The position numbers were made by a program, and so were the translations under genes. From contig JASJCD010000008.1 of NCBI GenBank assembly GCA_030066135.1, positions 1-36,762 of the forward strand: a stretch of DNA of 36,762 nt. Reading direction: 5' to 3'. Source of the stretch: Desulfobacterales bacterium. GTDB taxonomy: Bacteria; Desulfobacterota; Desulfobacteria; Desulfobacterales; UBA5852. Below, one piece after another: positions 24,839 through 29,094 of the stretch. The notes under the pieces are model-generated. The model saw only the letters and a program-made list of their open reading frames with translations, was not told where the DNA came from and did no database searches. Within the stretch, counting starts at the first letter, position 1. Each line of letters starts with the position of its first letter.

Positions 24839-24982
24839 ATGGGTAGAACACCAAACGACGATCGCAGCGACAGCCTGAATCCTAACAACCAGGCTTATTG
24901 GGACAGTTTGGACAATCATGCAAATCAACTCAATCCGAACAACGACGAGTACCGAGGTGATGAAGAAGACGACAACACATGA
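24839..24982 (+). CDS. Small NPNN-motif protein, hypothetical
   Basis: A 47-residue hydrophilic, Asn/Asp-rich protein: start ATG 24839 with GGAGG about nine nt upstream, stop TGA 24982. Two internal repeats read SLNPNNQAYWDS and QLNPNNDEYRG, followed by an acidic tail. The L-N-P-N-N-x-x-Y unit is the same one found in the neighbour at 25286 and resembles an uncharacterised class of very short bacterial proteins with NPNNPAY repeats. No signal peptide or helix is seen and it is likely disordered. The function is unknown. Two CGTAATTAG direct repeats with a 12-bp period lie upstream at 24739-24759. Confidence 0.65.
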   Translation: MGRTPNDDRSDSLNPNNQAYWDSLDNHANQLNPNNDEYRGDEEDDNT

Positions 24983-25285
24983 TTCGCGTCCCGCAATGAA
25001 AACAAGATTTAAAGCTGGCGGTCTTCAAATTTCCCTTTGTCCCGCGCCGAGCATCGTTGATGAGATTGGAAAAAGCTTGTCGGCCTGTTTGAGTCCCGCT
25101 GAAGGCGGGACGAGTTCCGACAAGCGCCGATCTTATCAACGACGCGCAGGGCTAAGCGGGGCGCGTTTTCTTTTGCTTCGTTTTCTTTCACGCGAAAGAA
25201 AATGAAGAACTTCTTTCAGGAAAATACCCGGTTCGGTCACACCGATAGGCCCTTCACCAAAACACGTTCTGCAAGGAGGCCATAG
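24983..25285. other. Intergenic region holding the structured repeat
   Basis: Apart from the element at 25032-25207, no gene is supported. Short open frames here on the minus strand read through the helices and give Lys/Arg-rich peptides that are not shared in frame between the two copies. The last 78 nt hold the leader and strong ribosome site (AAGGAGG) of the second NPNN gene. Confidence 0.5.
25032..25207 (+). ncRNA. Structured intergenic repeat element, copy 1 (candidate RNA)
   Basis: It pairs in a nested way. P0: (T)CCCGC at 25040-25045 with GCGGG(G) at 25156-25161. P1: 25054-25066 with 25130-25142, 13 pairs including one G-T. P2: GCTTGTCGG 25075-25083 with CCGACAAGC 25117-25125. P3: GTCCCGC 25093-25099 with GCGGGAC 25105-25111. 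P4: 25176-25189 with 25194-25207, 14 pairs with one G-T. Unpaired blocks shared with copy 2 are GCCGAGCA before P1, GGAAAA, CCTGTTTGA, CGAGTT and GCCGA. G-T pairs are stable only if the plus strand is the RNA. It lies between the two NPNN small genes, ending 78 nt before the second. There is no T-run, so it is not a simple terminator. No known RNA family was recognised. Confidence 0.6.
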
Positions 25286-25480
25286 GTGAAAAATGCAAAA
25301 GATCTTAGGGCCAATATAAAAAATCCTAACAATGATGCCTATTGGAAGCAAAGAGGGTATGCGAAAAGGCCAAACGATTGGAAGCAATTAATTGGAAAAA
25401 AACGTATTCATCTTAATCGCAGGGAAAAAGTGCCGGCAGATGGTGGCATAACCGATTTTTTCTGGAAAGATGATTATTAG
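25286..25480 (+). CDS. Small NPNN-motif protein 2, hypothetical
   Basis: 64 residues, GTG start at 25286 with AAGGAGG six nt upstream, an unusually strong ribosome site. The product has one motif KNPNNDAYWKQRGY, matching the repeats of the 47-residue protein upstream, then a basic middle and an aromatic C-terminus (GGITDFFWKDDY). It is basic overall, whereas its neighbour is acidic, so they could interact. Codon use is more AT-rich (AAA, AAT, TTA) than the flanking genes. No signal peptide is seen. Function unknown. Confidence 0.65.
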   Translation: MKNAKDLRANIKNPNNDAYWKQRGYAKRPNDWKQLIGKKRIHLNRREKVPADGGITDFFWKDDY

Positions 25481-25555
25481 ACTACAAGGCTTGGTGCCCG
25501 AATAAATTCGCAACGTATTCGCATGCCGACGGGCGTGGAAAACCACGATCAGGCA

Positions 25556-26446
25556 TCAAGCCTCCGACTTGAGACCGTGATAACGGATCAACCCCTCCTG
25601 GGCCACGGTGGCCACGAGCCGGCCGTTGCGGGTAAAAATTTTTCCGAGACTCAAGCCCCGCGCCTTGAAGGCGTTGGGACTTTCCATGGCATAGAGCAGC
25701 CAGTCGTCCATGCGAAAATCCCTGTGAAACCACATGGCATGGTCCAGGCTGGCCACCTGCATCTCCGGCTCCCAGAAGGTATGGCCGTGGGGGTAAAGCG
25801 AGGTGGCCACAAGGTTGAAGTCCGAGGCGTAAGCCAGCAGGTACTGGTGGGCGGCGATATCGTCGGGCATGCGATCGATGGCCTTGAACCACACGTATTT
25901 ATGGGGTGTCATTTTCTGCGGGGCAAAGGGGTCCACGGGGTTGACCTGGCGGATTTCGATCGGTTTCTCGCAGAGGATCTTTTCGCGGATACCCGTCGGA
26001 ATCCGGTCCGCGATCCGGCGCGCAATTGCGATGTCGGGCTCCAGTTCCTCGGGACCGGGCACGCGCGGGGCTTCGGCCTGGTGGTCAAAGCCCTCTTCAT
26101 CGACCTGGAAGGAAACGGCCATCGAAAAAATGGCCCGCCCCTGCTGGACCGCCACCACACGGCGAGTGGTGAAACTCTTCCCGTCGCGGATGCAGTCCAC
26201 GGTGTAGACAATGGGCTTGGTGGCTATCCCCGGGCGCATGAAATAAGCGTGCAGGCTGTGAGCCCGACGCTCGGCGCTCACGGTCTGGGATGCGGCCGAC
26301 AGGGCCTGCCCCAGCACCTGCCCCCCAAAAACGCTGCCAAAGCCCAGATCCTGGCTGGGGCCCCGGAAAATGTTCTGCTCGATTTTCTCTAGCTTGAGCA
26401 GCTTCAGCAGTTCTTCCAGCACGTTGCCTTGGACACAGACCGTCAT
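25556..26446 (-). CDS. tesB: Acyl-CoA thioesterase II (TesB)
   Basis: 296 residues, a double hot-dog thioesterase that hydrolyses acyl-CoA to free acid and CoA in the cytosol. N-terminal block NIFRGPSQDLGFGSVFGGQVLGQA and SLHAYFMRPG belong to the first hot-dog. The C-terminal one shows the TesB catalytic Asp in LAYASDFNLV, the block ASLDHAMWFHRDF and the Gln in TVAQEGLIR. Length is normal (E. coli 286). ATG 26446 has GGAGG eight nt upstream. A likely role in beta-oxidation or acyl-CoA balance is family knowledge. Confidence 0.94.
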   Translation of the reverse strand: MTVCVQGNVLEELLKLLKLEKIEQNIFRGPSQDLGFGSVFGGQVLGQALSAASQTVSAERRAHSLHAYFMRPGIATKPIVYTVDCIRDGKSFTTRRVVAVQQGRAIFSMAVSFQVDEEGFDHQAEAPRVPGPEELEPDIAIARRIADRIPTGIREKILCEKPIEIRQVNPVDPFAPQKMTPHKYVWFKAIDRMPDDIAAHQYLLAYASDFNLVATSLYPHGHTFWEPEMQVASLDHAMWFHRDFRMDDWLLYAMESPNAFKARGLSLGKIFTRNGRLVATVAQEGLIRYHGLKSEA

Positions 26447-26536
26447 GGAATGGACCTCCGGGAATCATTCGGCTCAAGGTTTCAAAGGTACGGACGTTTG
26501 CATCGTCACGGCAGGATTGGCTTCAGACGGGCGGCG

Positions 26537-26683
26537 TCAGGGGCTATAGCGCATTTCCGCACGGGTGTCAAAATTCAGGCCTGTCCGCCGCAGTCGCATG
26601 CGCGCCTCTTCGATAACCTTGGCAACCTGCCGCCCGGGCAGGGAGCCGGCCCTATCAGCCCTGGTAAATCTGCTCGGCGACAT
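26537..26683 (-). CDS. Candidate 48-residue basic protein overlapping the upstream gene
   Basis: An ATG at 26683 lies in the +1 frame inside the last codons of the ACT-like gene and has GGGGAGG six nt upstream, the best ribosome site of the area. The frame runs to TGA at 26537-26539. The product is basic with an amphipathic stretch (GRQVAKVIEEARMRLRRTG) and no known family. The overlap with strong ribosome site suggests translational coupling. It may instead be chance, because the Gly/Val codons of the ACT-like gene themselves generate the purine run. Confidence 0.35.
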   Translation of the reverse strand: MSPSRFTRADRAGSLPGRQVAKVIEEARMRLRRTGLNFDTRAEMRYSP

Positions 26684-26960
26684 CGGTCACCTCCCCGCTC
26701 ACTCCGTTGCGCGCGAGCAGCTCGATGATCTCGGGGATCTCAGCAGCGGCCTGGATGGCGACACCGCGGCAGCCCTGGCGATCGGACACGGTATAGCGGT
26801 GGGCCGCAAGAAGCCTGAAGGTGGCGGCACAGTCGTTGACCCGCAGCCCCATCACGGAATAATCGTTCATGTAGAAACGCGGCAGTGGTCCCGCGAACAC
26901 CCCGGCCGACCGGGACTGGTCCTGAATGTCGGGTTTCGGTACGATGGGCATAAAATGCAT
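26655..26960 (-). CDS. Small ACT-like regulatory-domain protein
   Basis: 101 residues. After a Pro-rich start (MHFMPIVPKPDIQDQ), the core reads FYMNDYSVMGLRVND, CAATFRLLAAHRYTVSD, GVAIQAAAEIPEIIELLARNGV and EVTDVAEQIYQG. This beta-alpha-beta order with a short helix between strands resembles single ACT-like domains, and the ending DVAEQIYQG is characteristic of a group of small orphan proteins. ATG 26960 has AGGGGG upstream; the further 45 in-frame codons are Arg/Gly-rich and unlikely. It converges on nothing and diverges from the decarboxylase at 27204, so a common intergenic control is possible. Ligand unknown. Confidence 0.6.
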   Translation of the reverse strand: MHFMPIVPKPDIQDQSRSAGVFAGPLPRFYMNDYSVMGLRVNDCAATFRLLAAHRYTVSDRQGCRGVAIQAAAEIPEIIELLARNGVSGEVTDVAEQIYQG

Positions 26961-27203
26961 CGAAGCCCCCCTTCGGTCTCCATTGGGATTCGGATCTGTC
27001 TGCCCGCCACCACCGCGGCCCCTTCCGCGAGCGGAACGCAGATGCAGGAATCGAGGCTGGCGCCAGGCAGGCCTGCTGGTATATAAGGATTCCAACGAAA
27101 CCCGGCAACCGAGGCGTTGGAATCACCGATGGGCCCGGACGCCCGGGGAGGCCACCTGCAGATGCTCAGGGGATTGATCCCCCGCAACCCATTGGGAACC
27201 ACC

Positions 27204-28721
27204 ATGACCACGACCCGCATCGACGAATGCCTCGCCACCCGAGACGGCCACCTGTTTATCGAAGACTGCGACACGGTGGAACTGGTCCGGCAATTCGGCT
27301 CACCGCTTTTTGTCATTTCCGAGAACCAGCTGCGGCGCAACACCCGACGCTTCCGGCAGGCCTTTGCGGAGGCCTGGCCCGATGGCGCGGTGGACGTGCT
27401 GCCGGCCATCAAAGCCAACTGGATCCTGGCCACACGCGCGATCTTGAGTGCCGAGGGCGCCGGGGCCGACGTCTACTCCGAAGGCGAGCTGCAGGCCGCC
27501 CTGGAATCCGGCGTGGCCCCGGATAAAATCTCGGTCAACGGCGGCGGCAAACCGGATGCCCTGATTACGAAATGCCTCCGGGCCGGGGTGCGCATCACGG
27601 TGGAGGACCTGGACGAACCCGCCCGGATCGACCGGATCGCCGGAGAGCTGGGAACCAAAGCCCGCATCCGTTTCCGTGTCAAACCCAATTTCCCCAACCT
27701 GTGGAGATCCACCGACTTCGCCCAGGAGAAGGTGTCCATCGACCTGGGCATTCAAACCTACAAATCCGGCATCCCGGCCCAGTATCTGCCCGAATTGGGC
27801 CGCGAGGTTCTGGCGCGGCCCAATCTGGAAATGGTGGGCATTCATTTCCATGCCGGACGTCATCACCCCAGCCTGTGGTACTGGCGCGGCCTGATGCGGC
27901 AGTACGCCCGCCTGGTGGCTGCGCTATGCCGGGAATGGGGCGACTGGCGCCCCTGGGAAATCGATATGGGCGGCGGTTTCGCCGTTCACCGCGACCCCCA
28001 CAACAAGCTGGGGCTGCGACGCGACGTGGTCGAGACCTGGCTCACCTGGCCGCTGGCCTGCCTGCTGCAGCTGCTGCCGCCCGCCCGGCGCTATCGTCTC
28101 ATGCGCCGCTTCGTGGGCCTGTTCACCAAAACGCCCAGCCCGAAGCGCGCGCCCGCGATCGAGGCCTACGCCCGGGCAGCCGCCGGCACCCTGCGGCGCG
28201 AGCTCAACCGCCAGGGTGTCGACACCCGGGGGGTCAAACTCCAGATCGAGCCCGGCCGCAGCCTCTACGGCAATGCCGGCATCCACCTGACAAGGGTCAA
28301 ACAGTTCAAGCAGCAGACCGAGCCCCTGCCCATGAACTGGGTGCTCACCGACACCACCTATTTCTTCCTGAGCGGCGGGGTCTTCGAATACCAGTTCGGC
28401 CACTTCATCTTCGCCAACCGGACCGATGACCCACCCGTGCACGTGGCCGATATCGTGGGCCACTCCTGTTATGCCGACCGCATCCTGCCCTTCGTCCGCG
28501 TACCGGCGGTCGCACCCGGGGACCTCCTGGCCCTGCTGGACATGGGGGCCTATCAGGAAGTTTCGGCAAGCAATTTCAATGCCCTGCCGCGTCCGGCCAC
28601 CGTCCTGGTCAACGGCGCCCGGGCGGATGTCATCCGCCGGGCCGAAACGCTGGATGATGTCTTCCGCCGCGACGTCATCCCGGATCGCCTCCTGGTTCGC
28701 CACCAAAGGCGGGAGCTATAG
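27204..28721 (+). CDS. PLP-dependent decarboxylase, fold type III (LysA/ornithine-decarboxylase-like)
   Basis: 505 residues. The alanine-racemase-like barrel has the PLP lysine K70 in PAIKANW and HFHAGRHHPS for the ring stack. IDMGGGF is the Gly loop, IEPGRSLYG binds phosphate, and the C-terminal domain gives the second-subunit Cys (C422, HSCYADRILPF) and the MGAYQEVSASNFN tail. Most family members are about 420 residues. Here an insert of about 60 residues follows IDMGGGF (from about 28000 to 28190), with a hydrophobic Leu-rich helix (TWLTWPLACLLQLLPPARRY). The start is taken at ATG 27204, with a weak GGGA; 29 further codons are open. The substrate could be diaminopimelate, a polyamine precursor or another amino acid. 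Confidence 0.85.
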   Translation: MTTTRIDECLATRDGHLFIEDCDTVELVRQFGSPLFVISENQLRRNTRRFRQAFAEAWPDGAVDVLPAIKANWILATRAILSAEGAGADVYSEGELQAALESGVAPDKISVNGGGKPDALITKCLRAGVRITVEDLDEPARIDRIAGELGTKARIRFRVKPNFPNLWRSTDFAQEKVSIDLGIQTYKSGIPAQYLPELGREVLARPNLEMVGIHFHAGRHHPSLWYWRGLMRQYARLVAALCREWGDWRPWEIDMGGGFAVHRDPHNKLGLRRDVVETWLTWPLACLLQLLPPARRYRLMRRFVGLFTKTPSPKRAPAIEAYARAAAGTLRRELNRQGVDTRGVKLQIEPGRSLYGNAGIHLTRVKQFKQQTEPLPMNWVLTDTTYFFLSGGVFEYQFGHFIFANRTDDPPVHVADIVGHSCYADRILPFVRVPAVAPGDLLALLDMGAYQEVSASNFNALPRPATVLVNGARADVIRRAETLDDVFRRDVIPDRLLVRHQRREL

Positions 28722-29094
28722 AGTGAAGCTCTTCCTCAGAGCGGAAGGCATACGGTGGCCCTCCGGATGGGAGCGAATTAATCGGTTGGACTTTCGTATT
28801 TATCCCTTTGCCCCGCGCCGAGCATCGACACGTCGGGCGGGAAAAGCGCGCGGACCTGTTTGAACGCAGCGAGTTTCCGCGCGCGCCGACCGACGTGGCG
28901 ACGCACAGGAAAAAGCGGGGCACGGGCGTCTTCTTTTGGTTCGTTTTCTTCCACGTGGAAGAAAATGAACACACCAAGAAATAATATTTCCCGCATCGGC
29001 AAACCCCACCGAGGCCTCCCCCTGTGGTGGCGGGTTTAGATCAAAACTAAATTTAAACCTTGACAATCGCATCGATAGTTCTATAGTTTGACAT
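28722..29094. other. Intergenic region holding copy 2 of the structured repeat
   Basis: No gene is seen. From left to right: about 80 nt after the decarboxylase, the structured element at 28803-28970, a stretch with GGCCTCCCCC, then the arsR promoter at 29060-29087. Peptides read through the element on the minus strand do not match those of copy 1 in frame, so it is not coding. Confidence 0.5.
28803..28970 (+). ncRNA. Structured intergenic repeat element, copy 2 (candidate RNA)
   Basis: Same architecture as copy 1 with different paired bases. P0: CCCCGC 28811-28816 with GCGGGG 28915-28920. P1: TCG then CACGTCGG (28825-28836) with CCGACGTG then CGA (28890-28901), one A-G mismatch. P2: GCGCGCGGA 28846-28854 with TCCGCGCGC 28876-28884. 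P4: 15 pairs, 28939-28953 with 28956-28970, a G-T pair in the same place as copy 1 and a flipped closing pair (G-C for C-G). P3 is reduced to a few bases, so that arm varies in length. The 25-nt lead before P1 (28803-28827) matches copy 1 at all but one position. It sits between the decarboxylase and arsR. Confidence 0.6.

Follow-up and report, generated by a model that had tools for sequence, protein, structure and literature searches.

What kind of element keeps its fold while changing the bases that form it? The question is raised by a stretch of 36,762 nt from a Desulfobacterales bacterium (GCA_030066135.1, contig JASJCD010000008.1, positions 1-36,762 of the forward strand; the whole stretch is called the window below), which belongs to a 4.0 Mb draft genome and contains two copies of a structured element. 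The answer that we favor, with moderate confidence, is that the element is mobile, interspersed and non-autonomous, and that it needs a folded single strand in order to spread. A preliminary description had recorded the two copies and their helices, and that much stands, but it did not include the pseudoknot, the copy number, the motif shared across phyla or the replication-strand bias that are reported here.

Helices, strand and the 3' module

Both copies are present where they had been placed, and in both the plus-strand RNA folds far better than dinucleotide shuffles. As first described, P1, P2 and the last hairpin (then called P4) pair with different bases in each copy, the pair that closes the last hairpin is C-G in copy 1 and the reverse, G-C, in copy 2, the two copies differ in the length of P3, and G-T pairs occur at the places given. 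The helix outline was correct for the helices named, but the element is larger: the unpaired CGN-YTTCTTTTGG segment joins a pseudoknot, and copy 2, in a long form that spans about 340 bp (roughly 28717-29059 of the window), has additional hairpins at either end. The main features are as follows, with scores from a covariance model, R1, built from 22 copies.

25033-25212, plus strand: copy 1, core element, short form (R1 158 bits; -90 kcal/mol, z -7.5)
28804-28975, plus strand: copy 2, core element (R1 191 bits; -88.8 kcal/mol, z -6.0)
28717-29059, plus strand: copy 2, long form with 5' and 3' extensions, ends approximate; repeats as a unit in related genomes
28726-28803, plus strand: 5' extension of copy 2, hairpin types CTCCCGCAGAGCGGGAG and CCCCCTCGAAGGGGG; common to long-form copies
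28976-29059, plus strand: 3' extension of copy 2, family terminus ...GGTGGAGGGTTTAGATCAAAACTAA (extension consensus)
25038-25162, plus strand: outer helix P0 of copy 1, TGTCCCGC (25038-25045) with GCGGGGC (25156-25162)
28809-28922, plus strand: outer helix P0 of copy 2, TGCCCCGC (28809-28816) with GCGGGGCA (28915-28922)
25051-25145, plus strand: P1 of copy 1, 25051-25069 with 25127-25145
28822-28904, plus strand: P1 of copy 2, 28822-28840 with 28886-28904
25075-25125, plus strand: P2 of copy 1, GCTTGTCGG (25075-25083) with CCGACAAGC (25117-25125)
28846-28884, plus strand: P2 of copy 2, GCGCGCGGA (28846-28854) with TCCGCGCGC (28876-28884)
25084-25116, plus strand: apical motif of copy 1, CCTGTTTGA, extended P3 hairpin, CGAGTT; conserved loop and cross-phylum signature
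28855-28875, plus strand: apical motif of copy 2, CCTGTTTGAACGCAGCGAGTT; cross-phylum signature with one P3 base different

Pairing was analyzed in 114 aligned copies, 110 of them distinct, from loci of five genomes of the genus, with 500 column shuffles and slid registers of the helix partners as controls. Across the 110 distinct copies, 95.2% of the cells of 57 pairs in six helices are standard pairs, compared to 84.2% in the column shuffles. Because the alignment was fitted to the covariance model, the 95% figure is biased towards that model, and weight is therefore put on double changes and strand asymmetry; neither the shuffle control nor the G-U asymmetry depends on model fit alone. Changes on both sides were found in 38 of the 57 pairs, a level reached in 0 of the 500 shuffles, and every slid register reduces pairing to 38-51%. 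P1 shows such two-sided changes in 13 of 18 pairs and P2 in 9 of 13, which bears out the earlier claim that structure rather than sequence is kept. The covariance-model search of related genomes proposed along with that claim uncovered further homologues with helix-preserving substitutions.

The same alignment identifies the strand that folds. G-U pairs outnumber A-C mismatches 365 to 39, or 199 to 37 with fixed wobble sites excluded. An A-C on the plus strand is a G-U on the minus strand, and the G-U excess therefore argues for selection on folding of the plus strand, the one that had been proposed. The plus strand also beats the minus strand when both are folded as DNA (141 of 147 copies; 163 copies were placed, 147 once duplicate loci were removed). 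P2 is capped by an asymmetric loop, CUGUYUGA / CGAGUU, around the short P3, and the GA/GA flanking this apical loop would allow tandem sheared pairs of the kind found in a kink-turn.

In an H-type pseudoknot with a major-groove triple helix, loop 1 (L1) spans the deep groove of stem 2 (S2). The segment TTTCTTTTGG ahead of the last hairpin, previously unexplained, has this layout when taken together with the hairpin. The upstream CGN is complementary to an NCG in the hairpin loop, giving a stem 1 (S1) whose partners covary (CGT-ACG, CGC-GCG, CGG-CCG), as expected of a triple-helix pseudoknot of this type. In strict register S1 is complementary in 60 of 74 copies (shuffle maximum 45); with either register allowed, the count is 98 of 106, compared to a mean of 64 and a maximum of 77 in 2000 shuffles. 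The YTTCTTTT of L1 is parallel to the hairpin's purine strand and corresponds to it at each base, in the manner of a third strand (CTTCTTTT/GAAGAAAA, TTTCTTTT/AAAGAAAA). The 3' module thus appears to be an H-type pseudoknot, with the triple helix itself a prediction from these matches.

25164-25207, plus strand: predicted triple-helix pseudoknot of copy 1; S1 CGT (25164-25166) with ACG (25190-25192), supported by covariation; L1 TTTCTTTTG (25167-25175), parallel to the S2 purine strand AAAGAAAA; S2 25176-25189 with 25194-25207
28927-28970, plus strand: predicted triple-helix pseudoknot of copy 2; S1 CGT (28927-28929) with ACG (28953-28955); L1 CTTCTTTTG (28930-28938), with CTTCTTTT matching the purine strand GAAGAAAA position by position; S2 28939-28952 with 28957-28970

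Triple-helix H-type pseudoknots are otherwise found in telomerase RNA and the SAM-II riboswitch. The pseudoknot predicted here resembles these in that its pyrimidine loop 1 would occupy the major groove of stem 2, which is polypurine, but it is part of an interspersed repeat with no Rfam match. At one Methylotenera locus (L108 5238), a G in the third strand TTTTGTTT faces precisely the T that interrupts AAAATAAA, which fits the expected G.T-A triplet.

Copy number, turnover and polarity

The earlier term 'two-copy' is correct for the window but not for the genome, in which a nucleotide search gave 50 matches and R1 about 37 full-length matches (E<1e-25) together with numerous partial matches. 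Each genome of the genus (5/5) carries tens of copies, and R1 finds 114 full-length matches in their loci. The sole other genome of the taxonomic family has no R1 match, and 3 of the remaining 34 genomes of the order are positive, with 2, 22 and 43 matches; the repeat is patchy above the genus level. The genomes referred to below differ in completeness (99% for G002, 96% for G013, about 80% for G000 and G004); G000, G001 and G004 are incomplete drafts, and G015 is closed.

Aligned copies start with CCCTTTG and end with AAAATGAACAA. At two loci of the window's own genome (L020 and L023), a structured insert of about 140 nt, GCATCATGCTGTCAGGCAAGGCG..., lies at one fixed place in the 3' strand of P1, and the same insert is suspected in C161, C301 and C88; it could be a variant domain or else another repeat lodged inside the first.

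That no family had been recognized agrees with the database searches. Rfam 15 at the gathering threshold gave 0 matches in the window, relaxed thresholds gave only chance-level matches for copy 2, and 17 cross-phylum loci yielded one tRNA and nothing else. Plasmid and phage records contained no match by similarity to copy 2. Literature searches by sequence string and topic, with partial coverage, returned nothing relevant, and the repeat may have a local name elsewhere.

The 40 copies in G002 and G003 all lie between genes, and the open reading frames (ORFs) that overlap them are mostly short and spurious-looking. Neighboring genes are on the same or the opposite strand 21/19 times upstream and 19/21 times downstream. 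This absence of a gene-orientation preference argues against leaders, terminators and 3' untranslated region elements; the mRNA 5'/3' element that had been suggested finds no support in the same counts. One 685-aa ORF call adjoining L225, from a crude gene caller, is the neighbor of a second copy.

Turnover between species is high. The syntenic site of G004 lacks copy 2 and has about 100 nt of unrelated spacer in its place, and a further copy is missing at another syntenic G004 site, which has 39 nt. Among the placed copies, different species have about a dozen sites in common; several of these carry stems of another subfamily, and two are in reversed orientation. The nearest relative of a copy is in the same genome in 87 of 147 cases, compared to 33 expected (maximum 51), and the top within-genome identity is 91-97% (93-97% in the best-sampled genomes). 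Both dispersal with loss and gene conversion fit these data, with the missing and reversed copies favoring dispersal. Given the tens of dispersed intergenic copies, the species turnover and the within-genome clustering, a mobile RNA-like repeat is the best-fitting of the options first listed.

The copies are also oriented with respect to replication. In flanks read along the element's plus strand with the elements masked, GC skew is negative in 118 of 141 copies (p 1.4e-16), and in 23 of 25 with 20-kb windows. Assuming the usual G-rich leading strand, this puts the plus strand on the leading-strand template. Independently of skew, same-contig pairs are co-oriented in 64 of 73 cases in G002 and 22 of 22 in G003. 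A second genus gives 11 of 12 skew-negative. A composite repeat in G015 (see below) divides 28 versus 11 by replichore (p 0.010), with the halves taken from record coordinates and the sign of the skew in agreement.

The apical motif beyond the genus

The exact apical string CTGTYTGAGCGNAGCGAGTT also turns up, on unrelated stems, in many phyla, among them Bacteroidota, Bacillota, Pseudomonadota, Nitrospirota and Patescibacteria: at least 120 reference-genome stretches contain it, as do 14 viral contigs. Among the matches listed for this string, 84 usable cases were analyzed. The P2 stem is complementary (at least 6 of 7 pairs) in 66 of these, compared to 2.8% in a partner-swapped control, and the set contains 64 different stem octamers. 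A downstream pseudoknot of the triple-helix type was detected in 35 of the 84, a few of them weak and possibly false, and in 0 of 60 shuffled sequences; 10 detections among 60 reverse complements are in line with a near-palindromic sequence. S1 is wholly different between groups yet paired (CTTGAT/ATCAAG, CTTGAC/GTCAAG, TCGCC/GGCGA, CGTGT/ACACG, GTGCCC/GGGCAC). With symmetric scoring the cross-phylum P2 has no strand preference (6 versus 6), and the plus-strand argument therefore depends on the genus copies.

The cross-phylum copies are dispersed singles among housekeeping genes. Their neighbors are ordinary and unrelated: a Pfam scan of 144 of them gave 158 families, of which not one was seen with more than 4 members, and no protein family is linked to the element. 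Elements can be arranged as divergent inverted pairs, separated by a few hundred bases, in Haemophilus, Variovorax and Parabacteroides (L126 2849-3063, L104 7152-7395, L085 1724-1997, L113 and L150). In viral contigs L063, L065 and L073, of the Haemophilus prophage type, copies appear to lie next to P2-like head completion and small terminase genes; this version has no match among phage records. The Variovorax version matches a Variovorax megaplasmid, and Paraburkholderia megaplasmids by the 3' module only. About 40 pieces of each of the latter (L415, NZ_CP012748.1, NZ_AP023181.1) match this module, and the single copy read keeps the pseudoknot layout, with S1 GCCGC/GCGGC and without the apical motif.

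How the element might spread

The folded plus strand consists of the outer helix P0, the stems P1 and P2 of nearly free sequence with the invariant CUGUYUGA/CGAGUU loop on top, and a 3' H-type pseudoknot, in which the pyrimidine loop is predicted to follow the groove of the polypurine stem and form a triple helix. The loops and the geometry of the helices, not the stem sequence, would be recognized by a trans-acting machinery. This would copy or insert the element in the form of a folded single strand (RNA or DNA), and only copies that keep the fold would spread. Recognition of this kind would account for loops that are constant and for stems that are free to change yet stay paired. The polarity could arise from insertion coupled to the replication fork, or from loss of copies whose better-folding strand is on the lagging-strand template; since the plus strand folds better as DNA too, selective loss would explain it as well as targeted insertion.

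A broader proposal, which we put forward only tentatively and regard as rather doubtful, is that there is a bacteria-wide class of elements spreading as structure-recognized single strands. Its members would have constant loops, a triple-helix pseudoknot and stems that can be exchanged freely, and a widespread machinery would move them in trans at the fork: a bacterial counterpart of short interspersed nuclear elements (SINEs) without reverse transcriptase. Rfam appears to have no entry for this abundant structured repeat, whose motif is found in many phyla, and the plasmid records that match are unannotated at the matching places. Strong replication polarity occurs in it together with RNA-grade covariation and a pseudoknot with a probable triple helix. 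Mobilization of the fold would point to an unknown trans-acting system in very different bacteria, and transcription to a large unstudied RNA class. Either way, the copies can mislead annotation through spurious short ORFs.

Several observations weigh against mobility of a folded strand. Target-site duplications were not seen by eye at the genus copies or at the two syntenic sites without a copy, and no clean empty site was found, those two sites holding unrelated spacer. Concerted evolution by gene conversion could mimic the within-genome clustering, and the cross-phylum single-copy sample has no strand polarity (44 versus 43). No mobilizing enzyme was identified. Some of the genomes with copies lack reverse transcriptase, and some lack Y1 transposase: the Y1 family PF01797 had 0 matches in G000, G004 and G013, all of which carry copies, and PF00078 (RVT_1, E<=1e-8) had none in G001, G002, G004, G013 and G015. 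Many Y1-rich relatives, in turn, have no copies of the element. Lastly, copy 1 is kept in G004 (C157) at 87% identity within unalignable surrounding spacer, with a compensatory change from T-A to G-C. Retained copies thus do keep the fold, and the change also fits a function in place.

The same change would be expected if the copies were a family of small non-coding or regulatory RNA genes, each held in place by structural selection and only rarely duplicated, and the plus-strand wobble preference and the pseudoknot with its predicted triple helix, typical of functional RNAs, suit this view as well. However, so few sites are shared across species, so often with different stems or orientation, that we consider such a gene family unlikely; the random relation to genes and the lack of a member in the family's other genus speak against it too.

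An ordinary miniature inverted-repeat transposable element (MITE) moved by a DDE transposase, with the fold a passive property of a palindromic element and the polarity due to a clamp-coupled transposase, is less probable still. Like MITEs, the element is short, non-autonomous, intergenic and subject to turnover, and the G015 composite of about 235 bp, which has the same apical motif, carries 17-bp terminal inverted repeats and 7-8 bp target duplications (14 of 27, compared to 2% in the control). Replication-dependent orientation is described for IS200/IS605, Tn7 and several insertion sequence (IS) families, in the last case as a sliding-clamp bias (PMC5371812). The composite's inverted repeat, TCAACTTTCGACTTTC (at most 1 mismatch), however, occurs 297 times in MITEs of about 60 to 240 bp (for example L351-L380), of which about 44 carry the apical motif; with so many lacking it, the motif there looks like cargo captured by a MITE, and the composite was rejected as proof of mobility for the whole class. 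In contrast to MITEs, no terminal inverted repeats were seen at the genus copies by inspection, and the covariation is RNA-like. A DDE enzyme reads ends and would not keep compensatory stem changes, a plus-strand wobble preference or a pseudoknot.

The near-uniform replichore orientation could also mean that the folded strand acts at the fork, in pausing, segregation or repair. Such a polar replication element would agree with the skew of the genus copies, the co-orientation of nearly all same-contig pairs and the similar bias in the second genus, but fork-coupled insertion or selective loss also predict polarity, and with high turnover, no conservation in the family's other genus and an unpolarized cross-phylum sample we think this improbable. 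A reverse transcriptase acting in trans on a SINE-like RNA would suit the RNA-like plus-strand fold and the polarity, but such retrotransposition is very improbable given no RVT_1 match in G002, which is 99% complete and has the most similar copies, or in G013 and G015.

Spread of a folded single strand, the reading favored here, has parallels in known systems. Integron attC sites are recognized by structure rather than sequence and fold as single strands, as would be the case for the element; unlike them, it is found outside cassette arrays, is longer and has a pseudoknot. IS200/IS605 elements likewise follow replication in their orientation (PMC5371812) and are recognized as folded single strands, as may be true here. 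Their transposed strand is on the lagging-strand template, whereas the better-folding strand of the element is on the leading-strand template (again assuming G-rich leading strands), and the element has no transposase gene or linkage to one.

Repetitive extragenic palindromic (REP) sequences are defined by a GT(A/G)G head that adjoins a palindrome of 20-35 nt (Nunvar 2010, PMC2817692). Together with REPINs and their RAYT proteins (PMC2817692), they resemble the element in being intergenic and palindromic, in their tens to hundreds of copies, in occasional inverted doublets and in stems held by complementary changes. The element differs in lacking a GT(A/G)G head in the alignment, in its length (about 170-340 bp versus 20-35), in its pseudoknot and cross-phylum loop, and in needing no rayt gene; the H. 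influenzae REP given in PMC2817692 has another sequence. Identity with REP/RAYT is ruled out by sequence and by the absence of PF01797 from G000, G004 and G013.

Two small ORFs flank copy 1 in the window, at 24839-24982 (47 aa) and 25286-25480 (64 aa). Neither matched a Pfam family or was seen in the aligned G004 spacer; they have the motif NPNNxAYW in common.

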